Source: Candidatus Goldiibacteriota bacterium (lineage in GTDB: Bacteria > Oederibacteriota > PGYV01). Taken from it: a stretch of 43,674 bases of DNA. A program made the translations under genes and the position numbers. Below are positions 19,511-29,443 of this stretch, piece after piece. Below the pieces are notes generated by a model. That model did no database searches. It was not told the origin of the DNA and saw only the letters and a program-made list of their open reading frames with translations. Location of the stretch: contig JAFGWA010000067.1 of assembly GCA_016937715.1 (NCBI GenBank), forward strand, positions 1 through 43,674, in the 5' to 3' direction. The first letter of the stretch is position 1. Every line of letters starts with the position of its first letter.

Positions 19511-20269
19511 TTAAAACCCTATGCCTGCTCTGAATACAGTCCGTTCCACCTTGTAATCAATAAGCCTTTCGCCGTACCCGTGAAAAAACTGCAGGACAAC
19601 AACAGGAAGAAAATCTTTAGTAAAAAACAGATTCCCGCGAAGCGTTATTTCCTGCCCGCCTTTTAATAAATCAACAGATGACGGGCCGCCCGGATATATC
19701 CTTATTGTGATGTCATTCCTGTCAAAAAATACTTTTGCAAGGTTGTTTACAGTAACCTGCATTTCAAACGTGCCCCTGTAACGCTGCAGGTCGGGCGAAG
19801 TGGGGTCAGGCGCGTAGGGATACCACACCTTAAATGACCAGTGCAGTTCGTTTTCCTGACCTATGAATATACCGTCCGTGTACCGCAGATAAAGTTTGTT
19901 CCAACTGCGCGAATCTTCACCCTGCAATCCGTTTGATTCATGGTCTAAAAGCCCAAAATCAAGCCAGGCGGAACGGGTATTATCAACAACTATCCTGAAA
20001 AACATATCGGGATTGTAATTCACGTCATACATGGGATGCGAATCCTCCCACAGCCCCCAGTACATCTGCTGAGTGTAGGCGACAAAAAGACCGCCTTCCT
20101 GAATGGCGCGGAACTTTGTGCTTATCTGCAGTTTGGAATCAGGGATACCCAATATGAAATAATTAGAATTATACCCTTCGCCGGGCCAGTGCGGCGGATT
20201 GAATTCATTGGAATAAGAATACGCCATAACAGGCAATAAAAGTATCATCAAAACTTTCAGTATCTTCAT
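19511..20269 (-). CDS. pldA: Outer-membrane phospholipase A (OMPLA)
   Basis: OMPLA is a 12-stranded outer-membrane beta-barrel that hydrolyses phospholipids in the outer leaflet. The catalytic triad is present with exact E. coli spacing: His110, Ser112 and Asn124 in DHESNGLQGEDSRSWNKLY. Other family segments are SKLQISTKFRA, AYTQQMYWGLW and NYNPDMFFR. A signal peptide (KILKVLMILLLPVMAYS) leads, and the protein ends in Phe, a common barrel C-terminus. Of the two in-frame ATGs, 20269 is preferred because GGTG lies just before it and the leader then begins MKILK; 20278 is the alternative. This gene is good evidence for a true outer membrane. Confidence 0.9.
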   Translation of the reverse strand: MKILKVLMILLLPVMAYSYSNEFNPPHWPGEGYNSNYFILGIPDSKLQISTKFRAIQEGGLFVAYTQQMYWGLWEDSHPMYDVNYNPDMFFRIVVDNTRSAWLDFGLLDHESNGLQGEDSRSWNKLYLRYTDGIFIGQENELHWSFKVWYPYAPDPTSPDLQRYRGTFEMQVTVNNLAKVFFDRNDITIRIYPGGPSSVDLLKGGQEITLRGNLFFTKDFLPVVVLQFFHGYGERLIDYKVERTVFRAGIGF

Positions 20270-20332
20270 GTTCACCATCTTTTTAAAAATATTATACGCC
20301 CGTATTATTAAGATTCGGCGTTATTTTGCTTT

Positions 20333-22570: not shown

Positions 22571-22948
22571 TTATGGAGTGTATGTTTTCTGCCTAACTAC
22601 AATCCCATTGCTGTAAAACTCTGACTTTATCAGCCTGCCCTGTTTGTCGTAATATTTAAATTCGCCCGTGCGTTTGCCGTTTTTTATGATACCTTCGTGT
22701 TCTTTCACATTACCCTCGTAATAAAAAATTATCCTGCCGTTGGCAGCGCCTTTTTTAACTTCCTGAGTGATTTTTATATCGCCGGATTCGTAATACCATA
22801 TTAGCTTCCCGTGTTTAAACCCTTTTACTATCGGCATTTCTGCCAGCAGTTTTCCTGACGGATAATAGACTTTTTCTATTTTTTCGGGTTTGGCTGTACA
22901 CGCCGCCATTACCAGTAACGCTGTAAAAAATATTACGATTTTTTTCAT
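22571..22948 (-). CDS. MORN-like (YwqK-type) repeat lipoprotein
   Basis: This 125-residue lipoprotein has a signal peptide ending MAAC (about Cys17), then repeats of the YwqK/MORN variant type: KVYYPSGKLLAEMPIVKGFKHG, LIWYYESGDIKITQEVKKGAANG, IIFYYEGNVKEHEGIIKNGKRTG, EFKYYDKQGRLIKSEFYSNG. Each unit has Tyr-Tyr, Gly and a following Lys-Asn/His-Gly. Some relatives are named antitoxins, but nothing here indicates a toxin. The start overlaps the stop of the upstream small gene by one base (TGATG). Confidence 0.8.
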   Translation of the reverse strand: MKKIVIFFTALLVMAACTAKPEKIEKVYYPSGKLLAEMPIVKGFKHGKLIWYYESGDIKITQEVKKGAANGRIIFYYEGNVKEHEGIIKNGKRTGEFKYYDKQGRLIKSEFYSNGIVVRQKTYTP

Positions 22949-23183: not shown

Positions 23184-24020
23184 TTATTTTTTATTAAAAT
23201 ATTTATTAAGCTTCTCTTTTATAAGCGGATAATCGGATTTTTTACCGGTCCAGATTTTAAAAGATTCCATCCCCTGATAAATAAGCATATCCAGCCCGTT
23301 TATTATTTTAGCGCCCATTTTTTCCGCGCGCGCCAGGAACTCCGTTTTTTCGGGATTGTAAATAATATCGTAAACAACCGCGCCTTTCTTTAACTTTTCA
23401 ATTTCGTATACCACCTGATTACCGTGCATACCGACTGACGTACAGTTCATTATAAAATCAGCTTCTGCAAGAACTTTGTCCTTTGCCGCGCTTTTTTTAA
23501 TATCTCCTATTACGGCTTTTTTTAATCCCAATTTTTTAACAAGATTTTTCGTCATGGGTATGTCTATATTATAAATGTAAAATTTTGACGGTTTTTGTAT
23601 CATTAAAGCGTAGCCAATAGCGTGCGCCCCACCGCCCGCGCCAATCATTACCACTTTTTTGCCTTTAAGATTTATCTTTGCTTTTTTCAGCGTGGCAAGA
23701 AACCCCAGATAGTCCGTATTGTATCCCGTAAGCCTGCCGTTTACGTTTTTAACGGTGTTAACCGCGCCTATCCTTTCTGCGGCAGGGTCAATTTCATCCA
23801 GCAGAGGCATTACAGCGTGCTTATGCGGAATTGTGACGTTAATACCCTTTATATTTTCTTTTCTTACTCGCTCTATCATGGCGGGCACTTTTTCCGGTTC
23901 TGTTTCAAATACCTTATATTCCCATTTCATTTTATATTTTTTAAACACAGCGTTGTGCATTACAGGGGATAAAGTGTGGGAAAGAGGGAACCCTATTATT
24001 CCGGTGATTGTTTTTTTCAT
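23184..24020 (-). CDS. aroE: Shikimate dehydrogenase
   Basis: AroE reduces 3-dehydroshikimate to shikimate with NADPH in aromatic amino acid synthesis. In the 278 residues the substrate serines are in GFPLSHTLSP (Ser14, Ser18). The catalytic pair is Lys67 (NVTIPHK) and Asp103 (GYNTDYLGF). The nucleotide loop is GAGGGAHA (127-134). NCTSVGM and the C-terminal NGLDMLIYQG are also present. Length is typical for a monofunctional enzyme. GGAGC precedes the ATG. No other aro genes are nearby; it begins 20 bp after the PmbA-like gene and may be cotranscribed with it. Confidence 0.95.
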   Translation of the reverse strand: MKKTITGIIGFPLSHTLSPVMHNAVFKKYKMKWEYKVFETEPEKVPAMIERVRKENIKGINVTIPHKHAVMPLLDEIDPAAERIGAVNTVKNVNGRLTGYNTDYLGFLATLKKAKINLKGKKVVMIGAGGGAHAIGYALMIQKPSKFYIYNIDIPMTKNLVKKLGLKKAVIGDIKKSAAKDKVLAEADFIMNCTSVGMHGNQVVYEIEKLKKGAVVYDIIYNPEKTEFLARAEKMGAKIINGLDMLIYQGMESFKIWTGKKSDYPLIKEKLNKYFNKK

Positions 24021-24040: not shown

Positions 24041-25357
24041 TTATCTTCCTGCAGCTGTCATATCCCCTATCACAATTGTGGGGCTTCCATAATTAAAATA
24101 AAATACGCTGTCCTCACATACATCTTTCACGTTCATTAACACGTCTTTTATATTGCCGGTTACAAGCATTTCCTTTACCGCCTGTTTTATCTCCCCTTTT
24201 TCCAGCAGCCACCCGTTTAAACCAAGCGAAAAATTACCGGACACAGGGTCGGCGGTATGAAGCCCCATTAAAGAGTTTATTATAAGGCCGCTGCCTTTCA
24301 TAATTATATCTTTCCTGGAATCCCCCGGCACAATGTAGAAGTTGGACACCCCGCATTCCGGAAGCGTCTTAAAACTGCCGCGTATGCCGTTGCCGCCGGG
24401 TTCTTTTTTGAAATAATCCGCTGATGCTATGTCATATAAAAATTCCATAAGCCTGCCGTGTTTAATAAGCATCTTATTTTTTCCGGGAGTACCTTCGCCG
24501 TCCGTACCAAAACTTCCCGCGCGGAAAGCCAGAAGCGCGTCGTCATTTATATTAAGGATGGACGACGCAACAGTATCGCCTTCTTTATTGGATCCAAAAA
24601 GCGATTTGCCCTTGCGGATATTGGAAGCGTAAAATAACGGCGCAAGTATCTGCAAAAAATCCACAGCCGCCTGAGGCGGAAGTATAAGGTCGTATCTGCC
24701 TGTCTTTAAAGCGCCGCCCCCTAACAGCATATCCGCTTTTTGCGCGGCTTCGCGCCCAAGCGCTTCAGCATTAATATCCTTAAACACGCAAGAACCTGTC
24801 ATAACCTCTGACGCTTCCTGCGCGGTGCCGTCTGAAGAAATGGCGGAAGTAAAGCAGTAAAAATAAGTCTTGTCAGATGAAGAAACAGCGCCCTGCGTGT
24901 TCATGTAATGAGAGCTGCTTTTTACATCAGTAAGATTTGTATCCCTTACAAATTTAACTTTTTTTCCGTATTTTTTTACCGCCGCTTCAGTTTCAAGCGC
25001 TTTGTCCTGCCTTATCTTTGAAGTAATATTGTTATAATCCGGGTCAATGGTATCCGGCGGGGTGCATTTACAGAAAGACGGCATTGTATATGTTTCGTAA
25101 CCCTCTATAAGCGCCGTGTCAGCGGCTTTTTTAACCGCTTTTTTTGCCTCTGTATTATCTTTGGCTGTAAAATATGAAAAACCCATTTTTCCGTTTTTAA
25201 AAACCCTTACAGCGCACCCAAAAGAATCTGACTGCCTTATCTGGTCAATTTCCCCGTCATTTACCATCGTTTCATTTTTAAGGTTTTCTTCGCAATACGC
25301 GTCGCCTTTTAACCCAAGCGCGTTTATTTCCGCAAGTACGGTTTTTAAGATTTCCAC
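24041..25357 (-). CDS. TldD/PmbA-family protein (PmbA/TldE-like)
   Basis: This 438-residue protein has the TldD/PmbA fold: an N-terminal domain with VNDGEIDQIRQSDSFGCAVRVF, and a C-terminal beta domain with LPPQAAVDFLQILAPLF, DDALLAFRAGSFGTDGEGTPG and the closing GDMTAAGR. The HExxxH zinc motif of TldD is absent, so it corresponds to the PmbA/TldE partner, which in E. coli acts with TldD in a protease that processes peptides. No TldD gene lies in the window. The start is GTG 25357, with AGGAGA upstream. It overlaps the end of rsmE by 13 bp. Confidence 0.88.
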   Translation of the reverse strand: MEILKTVLAEINALGLKGDAYCEENLKNETMVNDGEIDQIRQSDSFGCAVRVFKNGKMGFSYFTAKDNTEAKKAVKKAADTALIEGYETYTMPSFCKCTPPDTIDPDYNNITSKIRQDKALETEAAVKKYGKKVKFVRDTNLTDVKSSSHYMNTQGAVSSSDKTYFYCFTSAISSDGTAQEASEVMTGSCVFKDINAEALGREAAQKADMLLGGGALKTGRYDLILPPQAAVDFLQILAPLFYASNIRKGKSLFGSNKEGDTVASSILNINDDALLAFRAGSFGTDGEGTPGKNKMLIKHGRLMEFLYDIASADYFKKEPGGNGIRGSFKTLPECGVSNFYIVPGDSRKDIIMKGSGLIINSLMGLHTADPVSGNFSLGLNGWLLEKGEIKQAVKEMLVTGNIKDVLMNVKDVCEDSVFYFNYGSPTIVIGDMTAAGR

Positions 25358-26094
25358 GTGCTTCTCCTTATCGCCTGCACCAGCACCGTTGCCGCCGCAA
25401 TGGCCGCGGTTTCGGCCCTTAAAATAGTATCGCCTATGCTGACCGGTATGAACTCTTTTTTTATCAGAATTTCCGCCTCTGATTCGTCAAATCCGCCTTC
25501 AGGCCCTATTATAAAATATACCTTTTCTTCAAACCCTTCAAGTTTTACGGCTTCATCTATCAAAAAATTCTTTTCTTCTTTTTCATAAATAAAAAACTTA
25601 AGCGAATGCTGTGCGGTTTCTAGCGCGGATACGTTTTCAACAACCGGCAGTAATTTTGGCTTGTTCATCCTGCCGCACTGTTTTACGGCTGTATAAATAA
25701 TCTTTTCCCACCTGTCGTTCTTTTTTTCTTCATTCTTAATTTTTATAATAGTACGGTTTGTTATTACAGGTATTATTTCATCCACTCCAAGTTCGGTTAA
25801 TTTTTCCAGCATAAGTTCCATCTTGTCTTTTTTAATAAGCGAAATTATGGCGCATATCTGCGCTGTGCTTTTCTTTCTGTCCCGTATTTTATTTAATACT
25901 TTAATCCTTATTATCCCGTCGTGCCTGTCTATTTCTTTTATCTCCGCTTCATATTCACCGTGTTCATAATTGAACACATTAACTTTTTCGCCCGGTTCCA
26001 TCCGCAGCACGGTCACAGCATGATTGTAATCATTTCCTGTTATTTCCGCGTTTTCATCCGATATCTTATTAACAAAAAATCTGTGGCGTGCCAT
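25345..26094 (-). CDS. rsmE: 16S rRNA m3U1498 methyltransferase RsmE
   Basis: RsmE methylates N3 of U1498 in 16S rRNA using SAM. The 249 residues contain the N-terminal PUA-like part (MARHRFFV, HAVTVLRMEPGE) and a SPOUT knot: LEKLTELGVDEIIP, KQCGRMNKPKL, IIGPEGGFDESE and the closing LRAETAAIAA. All family hallmarks are present and the length is standard. It is translationally overlapped with the PmbA-like gene downstream. Confidence 0.95.
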   Translation of the reverse strand: MARHRFFVNKISDENAEITGNDYNHAVTVLRMEPGEKVNVFNYEHGEYEAEIKEIDRHDGIIRIKVLNKIRDRKKSTAQICAIISLIKKDKMELMLEKLTELGVDEIIPVITNRTIIKIKNEEKKNDRWEKIIYTAVKQCGRMNKPKLLPVVENVSALETAQHSLKFFIYEKEEKNFLIDEAVKLEGFEEKVYFIIGPEGGFDESEAEILIKKEFIPVSIGDTILRAETAAIAAATVLVQAIRRSTWKS

Positions 26095-26127: not shown

Positions 26128-26997
26128 TTACGGTTCAAATACCTTTATACTTGACACGTTTTCAACATAAACAAAAGTGTTATTTACGTCTATTAAAGAC
26201 GGTTTTATAACTTTACCGTTTCCTTCTCCGTAATCCGCCCAGGTCTTTAATTTATTTCCGTTTGAACAGCTGTATTCTATTATCCCCGCTTCACAGGGCA
26301 CGTATAAAATTCCGTCTTTAACGTCTATGCCTTTTATATCCGCTCCGGGTTCTATTTTTCTCAAAAAACCGCCGTTTAAATTCAGAAATGATATCCTGTC
26401 AAGCTCTGAATCCGCTACCACAATTTGATTATCATAAAAACACATATCTGAAATTTCCATAAACTGCCCGTCAGCCGTCCCCGCGGAACCAATAATAATA
26501 TTTGTGGAATTCAGTTTATTTAAAACTATACCATCATATTTTTCAATGAAACTGTCATAGGCTATATAAATAAAGCTGTCATCTACAATTACTTTATGGG
26601 CGTTAGCGGTAAGATTAACCGCAAAATCAGATAAAATACCCGATGTTGATATTACCGTTAAAGTATTTCCGTACGGCACGTCCCACGCGTCAAGAACATA
26701 AATATATGAATTACTAAGAGATACACTTTTGGGAGCTTTAAATACATCCGGTTCTGTTTCCCATTTTTCATCGCCGTTTTTATCAAAACAATAAAGAAGA
26801 GCGGTGGTTTCATCAACAATAAAAATATCATTTCCATAAGCGTCAAAATCCGTTACTTCAGATAAATTGCCTATGCTTCCGGTGTAGTGCATCCCGATAT
26901 AATTGGAAGCTTCAGGGTCGGTGGGATTAACACGTTTCATGTCTTTACATGAGATTAGAAACAAAACAACAATAATTATCACTGTAATTTTTTTCAT
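26128..26997 (-). CDS. Beta-propeller lipoprotein B (paralogue of 27823-28689)
   Basis: This 289-residue lipoprotein (signal peptide ending LISC, Cys17) starts its mature part with NPTDPEASNYIGMHYTG. A repetitive beta protein follows with NHL/propeller-like strands such as FDAYGNDIFIVDETTALLYCF, IYVLDAWDVPYGNTLTVI and DIKGIDVKDGILYVP. It ends ADYGEGNGKVIKPSLIDV, close to GDFGEGPGRIL in the paralogue. ATG 26997 is preferred over 27006 because AAGGTGG lies 6 nt upstream and the stop of the TPR gene is immediately adjacent. It is the last gene of a duplicated two-gene module. Function is unknown; propeller lipoproteins often bind proteins or glycans at the envelope. Confidence 0.75.
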   Translation of the reverse strand: MKKITVIIIVVLFLISCKDMKRVNPTDPEASNYIGMHYTGSIGNLSEVTDFDAYGNDIFIVDETTALLYCFDKNGDEKWETEPDVFKAPKSVSLSNSYIYVLDAWDVPYGNTLTVISTSGILSDFAVNLTANAHKVIVDDSFIYIAYDSFIEKYDGIVLNKLNSTNIIIGSAGTADGQFMEISDMCFYDNQIVVADSELDRISFLNLNGGFLRKIEPGADIKGIDVKDGILYVPCEAGIIEYSCSNGNKLKTWADYGEGNGKVIKPSLIDVNNTFVYVENVSSIKVFEP

Positions 26998-26999
26998 AT

Positions 27000-27815
27000 T
27001 TACCACCTTATTTCCGCGGACGCCATAACCGCGCCGCTTTCATTTATATACACAACACCTCTGGCTTCGGGGCTGTTATAGCTTAACCCCGCGTCCACAA
27101 TACCGGCGGCGTAAAGCCCGCCCGCTATCAGTCCGAATATCAGCGCGCTTGTAGCCGCTTCTTCCGCTTTTTTGTACGCGGCATCCTGATTTTCATTTGT
27201 CTTTAAATACTTGTCATATTTTGTATGCTGGTCTGCCACATTGTAAATTGTAAGGGCGGTGCTAAGGGCAAAAGACGCTCCCACTATTACCCCTTTTAAA
27301 TGCTGCCCGTTGTGCATCTGCCCGAACCCCGGCAGCACGGCTGAACGCCACATAGAATCTATGGGCTCCCTTACCTGCGTGGCTTTCTGCTTTTTTTCCA
27401 TAAAAGAATTGTAATATTCCATAAAATCTTTGGCATCTTTATCTTCGGGGTCAAGTTCCAGCACTTTTCTGAAAAGCGGAAGCGCGTATTTATGCTGTTT
27501 CATCTGGTAGTAGCAGAATCCCGTATTTTTCCACCCTTCTTTAAACGTGGGGTCTATTTTAACCGACGCGTAAAAAAACCTTGCCGCGTTTTTATAATCC
27601 TTTGCCTTAAACAGCGCTTCGCCCTTTTTAAAATACAGCATTGCCTTGTCGCGCACAGGGTTTTTCATTTTTTCGGATTCAGTTTGCACCTGCTGAAGAA
27701 ATACAGACATGGCTTCATCTTCGCTCTGCGCCTTTTCTGTTTCTTCATAAAAAGCATATACCGCAGATGAAACGATTAAACAAAATATTATTGTAAAAAA
27801 AATACTCTTTTTCAT
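27000..27815 (-). CDS. TPR and DUF5683 envelope protein B
   Basis: This 271-residue protein has an N-terminal signal peptide (SIFFTIIFCLIVSSAVYAF), two or three TPR-like helices (about 58-130: AMLYFKKGEALFKAKDYKNA; GWKNTGFCYYQMKQHKYALP) and a DUF5683-type membrane region from residue 155 (MWRSAVLPGFGQMHNGQHLKG), with hydrophobic segments near 176-192 and 222-242. It is paralogous to 28691-29443, sharing domain order and the MWRSAVxPGxGQ motif. It lies between the two propeller lipoproteins, 7 bp from one and 2 bp from the other, so the four genes form one operon. Confidence 0.8.
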   Translation of the reverse strand: MKKSIFFTIIFCLIVSSAVYAFYEETEKAQSEDEAMSVFLQQVQTESEKMKNPVRDKAMLYFKKGEALFKAKDYKNAARFFYASVKIDPTFKEGWKNTGFCYYQMKQHKYALPLFRKVLELDPEDKDAKDFMEYYNSFMEKKQKATQVREPIDSMWRSAVLPGFGQMHNGQHLKGVIVGASFALSTALTIYNVADQHTKYDKYLKTNENQDAAYKKAEEAATSALIFGLIAGGLYAAGIVDAGLSYNSPEARGVVYINESGAVMASAEIRW

Positions 27816-27822
27816 CTTATTT

Positions 27823-28689
27823 TTACTCCCCGAATTTCTTTATAGTTGAGCCGTCCTGGATATATATTAACCCGTCAGCGGCGTTATAGGCAATACTTTT
27901 TCCATTTAAAATCCTGCCCGGCCCTTCGCCAAAATCCCCCCACTTAAGCAGAACACCAAGCGTGCCGTCTGTTTTGTAAACCGCGCTTTCTGACAATATT
28001 TGCAGCGCGCCTTCCTGAATACATGCATCTATAATATTGGCGGTAAAATCAATTACCTGCGGATTGCTTAAATTCTGGTCATATTTAATTACCTGCTTTT
28101 TATTAAGTTTGTTTACCACGTATACGGAAGTGTTGAACTTAAAAATCTCCCCCGGAGTAAAGTAACCCTGCGCGGTCACGCTTACAGGTACAGTTAACTG
28201 CGCGCCGCCAGAGTCAGAAATACGGTATATTTCATTGTCATATTCGTTGGAAATGTATAAATTGCCGTTCATCCATTCTATGTATAAACTGTCAATTCCC
28301 GAAGAAGCGGTGAAGGCAAGCGGGGTTATCGTATTAAACATATCATTCTGAATTTTCTGCACGTTTTCGGACCTGTCAACGCCATAAATATTGCCGCTGT
28401 CATCCGCGCATATATCAGATATTCCTGTAAACAAACCAAGCGGCGTACCTGATGCTGTTTTCATCACACAGCCCCCATAAACTTCTTTAGTGCCGGCATA
28501 AGCTATATAACTCCCGTCAGACACAATTGATTCTATCTGAAAATCAGCGGGGTAAAGTTCTTCGCCTTTATATGTGATACCCATGTAATCTGCCGAAGAC
28601 GGGTCGTAAGGATTTGTACGGGACAATTCGCTGCATCCAAAAAAAACCGCTGTTGAAAACAATATGAAAACAAGTATGAATTTTTGCAT
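27823..28689 (-). CDS. Beta-propeller lipoprotein A
   Basis: This 288-residue lipoprotein (signal ending FFGC, Cys19) has a mature N-terminus SELSRTNPYDPSSADYMGIT and repeated beta strands (ISDICADDSGNIYGVDRSEN; SLYIEWMNGNLYISNEYDNE; FNTSVYVVNKLNKKQVIKYD) consistent with a propeller. It ends with GDFGEGPGRIL and DGLIYIQDGSTIKKFGE, mirrored in lipoprotein B. The gene starts one base after the stop of TPR-DUF5683 protein A, so the pair is tightly coupled. The molecular role is unknown; context suggests it works with the DUF5683 protein at the outer face of a membrane. Confidence 0.75.
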   Translation of the reverse strand: MQKFILVFILFSTAVFFGCSELSRTNPYDPSSADYMGITYKGEELYPADFQIESIVSDGSYIAYAGTKEVYGGCVMKTASGTPLGLFTGISDICADDSGNIYGVDRSENVQKIQNDMFNTITPLAFTASSGIDSLYIEWMNGNLYISNEYDNEIYRISDSGGAQLTVPVSVTAQGYFTPGEIFKFNTSVYVVNKLNKKQVIKYDQNLSNPQVIDFTANIIDACIQEGALQILSESAVYKTDGTLGVLLKWGDFGEGPGRILNGKSIAYNAADGLIYIQDGSTIKKFGE

Positions 28690-28690
28690 A

Positions 28691-29443
28691 TTAATACCTG
28701 TAATTTATGACATTAAAGGCAAGCATATCGCCTTTTATTTCTATCATAGAATTCATTTTATTCATGTCCACTCCGATTTTATCATACTCCGCGCCTGTCA
28801 TGAATCCGTCCACTATGGATATAAGCCAGACAGTGCCCAGCATGGCAAGCGGGATAATCACGCGGCTGTTGGCGTCCTGCGCGGCTTTATATTTTACATC
28901 AAAATCAGTGTTGGCGTTATAATAGGCGTCCACAGCCTGCTGCTGGTCTATTGTGTATTTAACCACAGCAGCGGTACTGGCAAGAAAAGAAAGGGAGTAT
29001 ATGTACCCTTTTACAAGCTCGTCGTTATAAAACTGCCCAAGGCCCGGAAACACCGCGGAACGCCACATAATATCGCCTTTTAATTTTTTCTGTTTTTTAC
29101 CTGTCGCGGCTGTTTTGGAAGGCTCGTTTATTTTTGGATTTATCATGTCCAGATATTTTTCAGCCGTCTTTTCGCCGGGTTTTATCATAAGCACATATTT
29201 AAAAATAAGCTTGGCATTGCGGTACTTTTTCATGTTGTAGTAACACATTCCAAGCCCAAGCCATGCCTGCCACATTTTTTTGTCTTTTTTAACGGCAGCA
29301 TTATAATATTGAAGGGCCTTATTAAGGTCATTCTGCTTGTGGTAAGTTATGGCATATTTGTAATATTTGACAGCCAGGCTGTCAGCGGCAAAAACATTTG
29401 TGATAAAAACAGTAAGTATTGCGGTTATTACGAGCCTTTTCAA
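28691..29443 (-). CDS. TPR and DUF5683 envelope protein A
   Basis: This 250-residue protein has a signal peptide (KRLVITAILTVFITNVFA), two TPR-like repeats (about 25-92: YYKYAITYHKQNDLNKALQY; WLGLGMCYYNMKKYRNAKLI), a Lys-rich linker and a DUF5683-type membrane domain (MWRSAVFPGLGQFYNDELVKG, about 126-220) with two hydrophobic spans. The open frame runs to 29602, but the first 53 codons give no leader. TTG 29443 is chosen for GGGGTGG 7 nt upstream and the signal peptide right after it. It is first of the four-gene run 29443-26128. Confidence 0.8.
   Translation of the reverse strand: MKRLVITAILTVFITNVFAADSLAVKYYKYAITYHKQNDLNKALQYYNAAVKKDKKMWQAWLGLGMCYYNMKKYRNAKLIFKYVLMIKPGEKTAEKYLDMINPKINEPSKTAATGKKQKKLKGDIMWRSAVFPGLGQFYNDELVKGYIYSLSFLASTAAVVKYTIDQQQAVDAYYNANTDFDVKYKAAQDANSRVIIPLAMLGTVWLISIVDGFMTGAEYDKIGVDMNKMNSMIEIKGDMLAFNVINYRY

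Follow-up and report, generated by a model that had tools for sequence, protein, structure and literature searches.

The two gene pairs that lie in tandem at positions 26128-29443 of the window (the whole stretch of 43,674 nucleotides that was analysed, from an uncultured Candidatus Goldiibacteriota bacterium) point to an undescribed two-protein device of the cell envelope, and, judged from the sequences, the pair is a conserved unit. Each pair consists of a TPR-DUF5683 protein (T1, T2) and a propeller lipoprotein (P1, P2), and the genes are transcribed on the minus strand in the order T1-P1-T2-P2. All four genes were found where the earlier note had placed two such pairs, and the spacing of 1-7 bp that it gave agrees with the measured gaps of 1 bp (T1-P1), 7 bp (P1-T2) and 2 bp (T2-P2). 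T1 (28691-29443, TTG start) encodes a signal peptide, two TPRs, a two-helix DUF5683 hairpin and a C-terminal tail with Tyr as the last residue; its DUF5683 region is located at 28694-29080 (MWRSAVFPGLGQ ... NYRY). T2 (27000-27815) shows the same layout with Trp as the last residue, and its DUF5683 region is located at 27003-27365 (MWRSAVLPGFGQ ... EIRW). P1 (27823-28689; Cys19, R-x-NPYDP) and P2 (26128-26997; R-x-NPTDP) encode predicted lipoproteins with a degenerate NHL-type beta-propeller. The start of P2 was placed at the ATG at 26997, 2 bp past the T2 stop; the listed GTG at 27006 would overlap T2. Downstream on the same strand follow rsmE (RNA methyltransferase; 25345-26094), a gene of the PmbA/TldD peptidase family (24041-25357) and aroE (shikimate dehydrogenase; 23184-24020), all of them neighbours conserved in the order to which the host belongs. 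A phospholipase A1 (PLA1) gene (19511-20278) and a gene for a short MORN-repeat protein (22571-22948) are also found near the cassette.

A genome profile search of the host genome (96% complete) revealed T1 and T2 as its only DUF5683 genes. The two proteins could be aligned over 193 aa with 32% identity (E = 2e-27), and the sequence MWRSAVxPGxGQ, reported earlier as common to both, lies inside the aligned region. TPRs and DUF5683 were assigned to both proteins by Pfam scan; in the genome search for DUF5683 (PF18935; cut-off 26.7 bits), T2 scored 33.5 bits and T1 26.8 bits with its neighbours in frame, while T1 is a borderline member, reaching 22.4 bits in a plain Pfam scan and thus staying below the cut-off. 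Each T protein has a predicted signal peptide, and hydropathy showed two more hydrophobic segments within DUF5683 in nearly all of them. The topology of T2 was likewise taken from hydropathy, and a T2 structure model built from four sequences (pLDDT 41) was set aside. Across 20 aligned T sequences the invariant residues were W-R, P-G-x-G-Q, N, K-G, Y, N, A and D. The last residue was W, F or Y in 22/22 T proteins, and an aromatic residue was also found at the C-terminus of 17/17 proteins of the T3 family described below and of 13/14 other exported DUF5683 proteins, as compared with 47/351 background ORFs. The T1 protein of one relative (G005; 157 aa) has no TPRs, yet P1 was kept. Comparison of the DUF5683 region with solved structures gave no convincing match (best E = 0.07), and a literature search on DUF5683 function returned nothing relevant. 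DUF5683 also occurs beyond the phylum, as a control search found it in a Bacteroides genome among others.

P1 and P2 could be aligned at the N-terminus (lipobox and R-x-NPxDP) and at the C-terminus only (E = 5e-7). The lipobox Cys was invariant in 19/19 aligned P proteins, and a lipobox test likewise marked P as a bacterial lipoprotein; most carry the R-x-NPxDP stalk, and the last blade shows GxGxG. The P profile matched the solved NHL propellers of PknD, TRIM2/3/71 and Pizza with E values down to 5e-18, while single-sequence Pfam scans of P1 and P2 gave no NHL match above the cut-off. A fold search with the P1 model, which is of moderate quality (pLDDT 58) and was used for the fold class alone, also retrieved PknD (E = 1e-7) and Pizza propellers. 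As for the motifs that the earlier note had regarded as shared by both lipoproteins, NPxDP is indeed present after the lipobox in P1 and P2; the GxGP/N-G ending proved to be the ordinary consensus of an NHL blade and is not private to them. Of the 13 matches of the DNA pattern in the host genome, only those in P1 and P2 had NPxDP directly behind a lipobox. The idea that NPxDP marks this pair alone throughout the phylum was rejected, given an NPxDP lipoprotein without a DUF5683 neighbour (L127) and the frequency of P-x-x-P stalks, C-x(3-6)-P-x-x-P starts being common among lipoproteins of the phylum. In trees, the P1 family and the P2 family each formed one tight group among many NHL propellers, and a tree of 51 NHL-type propellers placed P1 and P2 together with modest support (92/71), apart from NHL lipoproteins not located beside DUF5683. 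A conserved adjacent pair of NHL-repeat proteins, often beside a flippase-like gene, could also be observed in the host order (L143, L144, L152, L155, L156, L131).

Conservation was followed in 14 genomes from six families of the host order. The T1-P1-T2-P2 block occurs in four of the six families, and the other two carry only T2(-P2). T2 was found in all 14 genomes, with an intact P2 behind it in ten and a P2 cut by the contig end in two; the remaining two contigs, of G008 and G011, end inside T2. T1 and P1 were both present in ten genomes (four families) and neither was found in four (G003, G006, G008 and G011), where a different gene lies upstream of T2; one was never present alone. The contigs G008:C99 (L048) and G011:C115 (L047) derive from related genomes and are nearly equal in length; where T1-P1 would be expected they have an additional gene (DUF4139 in L048), and neither assembly yielded the remainder of T2. 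Where the contig continues, P2 is followed by rsmE, pmbA/tldD and aroE, not every contig reaching all three. T-to-P junctions are nearly all overlapping or no longer than about 11 bp, the exception being 351 bp in G004. Upstream of the cassette, several families (L042, L044, L045, L046, L047, L048) carry a gene string of varying completeness, which encodes a HAMP/HD-GYP protein, a HAMP/nucleotide cyclase, a cytoplasmic TPR protein and two small Cys-rich proteins, and which is absent in the genus of the window.

A tree of 22 T proteins showed one T1/T2 split and a tree of 20 P proteins one P1/P2 split, both with 100/100 support. Since copies 1 and 2 are separated by a single branch in each tree, the duplication is older than the split of the families carrying both copies. 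The T-P-T-P order and one clean split per tree are most simply read as duplication of the whole pair and not of single genes, as the earlier note had proposed; alignments and trees agree that T1 and T2, and likewise P1 and P2, are related, and the pairs recur in other genomes. Matched co-evolution within each pair, which the same note had also put forward, did not emerge from eight genomes, as partial correlations of rates gave no clear pair-specific signal (r = 0.86 for T1-P1, 0.65 for T1-P2, 0.73 for T2-P2, 0.73 for P1-T2 and 0.89 for P1-P2).

Adjacency of DUF5683 and lipoprotein genes recurs across the host order and in a second order. In a search of the phylum, DUF5683 was found in 28/45 genomes, joined at its N-terminal side to CsgG-like, beta-helix or TPR domains or to none. 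In one genus of the second order, the gene of a CsgG-DUF5683 protein and that of an NPxDP lipoprotein downstream of it are separated by 10 bp (L119:3643-5905; L120:3401-5531). These orthologous T-like proteins are 78% identical, while the lipoproteins are alike over the first 33 aa only (52% identical) and continue into different bodies, i.e. an NHL propeller (Pfam NHL, E = 3e-37) versus a parallel beta-helix (assigned by eye). Most DUF5683 genes of the phylum outside the host order have no adjoining lipoprotein, these adjacency counts referring to sampled genome regions. The branches of a phylum-wide DUF5683 tree were mostly not resolved, and an NHL-propeller tree did not firmly place the second-order propeller as sister to P1/P2. 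Two other arrangements were observed in the phylum. PGxGQ hairpins of the DUF5683 type precede a signal peptidase I domain in L121:501-1712 (S26 confirmed by Pfam), L123:3337-4509 and L124:318-1475 (both assigned by eye), and in other families (L049-L051, L114) a pilT-like gene is found shortly upstream of CsgG-DUF5683 genes and a gene for a membrane protein of 615-629 aa downstream of them.

A second group of short exported proteins, T3, is characterized by a pair of hydrophobic helices, an aromatic residue at the C-terminus and conservation of Y, Y-T and D. By these predicted features T3 is an undescribed family of exported hairpin proteins, whose genes often directly precede that of a lipoprotein, the fold of which varies. 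It was found in 9/45 genomes (loci L163-L181), eight of them within the host order, with TPR, OmpA or no N-terminal domain. Comparison with DUF5683 is suggestive of homology (hhalign E = 3e-4, probability 41%; 1/200 composition-preserving shuffles scored higher). A gene follows within 30 bp in 8/18 T3 loci, and no tight downstream gene is present in the other 10. All eight encode lipoproteins, as compared with a lipoprotein at 8/189 equally tight junctions of the surrounding DNA (p = 3e-10). Two of these eight T3 junctions, both from G007, depend on how the family was discovered, since they were met beside NHL lipoproteins; similarity was the only guide to the remaining six. The bodies of the partner lipoproteins are NHL (five), Kelch, LRR or DOMON. 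The host genome has two T3 copies (G000:C17:19525-19800 and C47:5964-6248), neither with such a downstream lipoprotein.

We lean towards the explanation, which we regard as moderately probable, that T and P make up a dedicated two-protein envelope unit in two anciently duplicated, diverged copies, with T as the dedicated partner of its lipoprotein. The features read directly from the sequences are homology, the age of the duplication, joint presence or absence, tight order, export signals and the exchange of bodies. As T1 of G005 is without TPRs and partner bodies are swapped elsewhere, the TPRs and the propeller are exchangeable and not the essential elements; constant in the predicted unit are a hairpin with an aromatic tail, a lipidated stalk and genes in tight order. 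T would be exported via its signal peptide, with the TPRs in the periplasm, and its two-helix DUF5683 hairpin would hold it in a membrane; the tail, which ends in an aromatic residue, would then lie in the periplasm or at the outer membrane. Synthesis of P would follow that of T immediately, probably on a shared message, and P would be lipidated at its Cys and carry an NHL-type propeller. T might then act as an anchor, escort or assembly factor in physical contact with its lipoprotein. Because related pairs exchange the body of the lipoprotein and keep hairpin, stalk and tight order, T probably engages the lipidated N-terminal stalk or the adjacent membrane and not the propeller itself. A wider proposal, which we put forward as a doubtful one, is that DUF5683-type and T3-type hairpin proteins belong to a large class, so far unrecognised, whose members serve as dedicated partners of lipoproteins, each combining the constant membrane hairpin and its aromatic C-terminal tail with an exchangeable periplasmic adaptor (TPR, OmpA or CsgG-like) and handling a neighbouring lipoprotein by its stalk. 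If true, there would be a route of lipoprotein handling or sorting outside Lol and Slam that operates whatever domain the lipoprotein displays. A conserved, re-used pairing with exchanged bodies also offers a testable lead on the function of DUF5683, and on lipoprotein handling in diderm lineages without known surface-lipoprotein systems.

It could also be that the TPRs of T bind the propeller of P, forming an envelope assembly or integrity complex like BamD-BamB or CpoB-TolB in two paralogous versions. TPR and propeller recur together in known systems: Tol-Pal combines a TPR protein (CpoB) with a periplasmic propeller (TolB). The same combination is found in BAM (PMC3359395). Also, the fold model of P resembles NHL propellers, and the order, in which 14/14 genomes encode Omp85 proteins, is diderm-like. 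The assembly of the window lacks the full-length Omp85/BamA-like match of its 13 relatives, probably owing to an assembly gap. A TPR-propeller complex is nevertheless fairly unlikely, given the retention of P1 beside a T1 without TPRs and the related pairs that have no TPR or no propeller. A membrane partner of the lipoprotein is preferred to it because the adaptor and the displayed domain vary while hairpin, tail, stalk and order are constant. BamD-like TPR and PQQ-propeller candidates are encoded elsewhere in these genomes, so there is no evident vacancy; replacement of BAM by the pair was not favoured, since BamA candidates exist elsewhere as well.

Slam proteins combine a signal peptide, TPRs and a membrane domain and are encoded beside their lipoprotein cargo, and about 52% of Slam homologues adjoin a lipobox gene (PMC5449769). 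T shares this plan, and the aromatic C-terminal residue, which almost all exported DUF5683 proteins and T3 proteins have, could be the beta-signal of an outer-membrane strand recognised by BAM, so that T would be associated with the outer membrane and would move or hold the adjacent lipoprotein at the cell surface. Such export is quite unlikely, however, as T has no DUF560 barrel, its TPR_Slam match reached only E = 0.07, and two hydrophobic helices usually stop in the inner membrane; moreover, the phylum contains signal peptidase I fusions with similar PGxGQ hairpins, and several outer-membrane-protein-like ORFs here end in WK and not in a terminal aromatic residue. That T and P are merely co-expressed housekeeping genes, duplicated as an operon segment without joint action, would fit a block adjoining the assorted housekeeping string of rsmE, pmbA/tldD and aroE, and adjacency by itself is no proof of contact, but this is very improbable, as such adjacency is seen again with other neighbours, both in the T3 family and in a second order, and T1 and P1 are either both present or both missing while T2 remains.

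The putative T-P unit can be set against known families and systems as follows. T1 and T2 contain the N-terminal PGxGQ part of the DUF5683 domain (PF18935), and their match, which scores near the cut-off, spans about 55-70 of the 151 positions; they differ from the family at large in being exported and in having TPRs and a lipoprotein partner. By profile and by the P1 fold model, P matches six-bladed NHL propellers (PF01436; the PknD sensor domain, TRIM2/3/71), whereas P1 and P2 are predicted lipoproteins with an NPxDP stalk and alone fall below the Pfam NHL cut-off. In contrast to Slam (DUF560), T has no 14-strand barrel (no Pfam DUF560 match) and ends in a two-helix hairpin with a short tail, and P is not a TbpB-like barrel as the Slam cargo is. 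Compared with Tol-Pal, a Pfam scan showed neither TolB_N in P1 and P2 nor OmpA/Pal domains in the T and P proteins, no tol genes were found among the scanned neighbours of the cassette, and TolB is not lipidated, unlike P. Like BAM, with its BamB propeller and BamD TPR protein, the T-P pair would bring a propeller protein and a TPR protein together in the envelope; however, BamD is a TPR lipoprotein of the YfiO family, while T has neither a lipobox nor a YfiO match, and BamB is a PQQ-type propeller, while P has no PQQ family in Pfam and matches NHL by profile.
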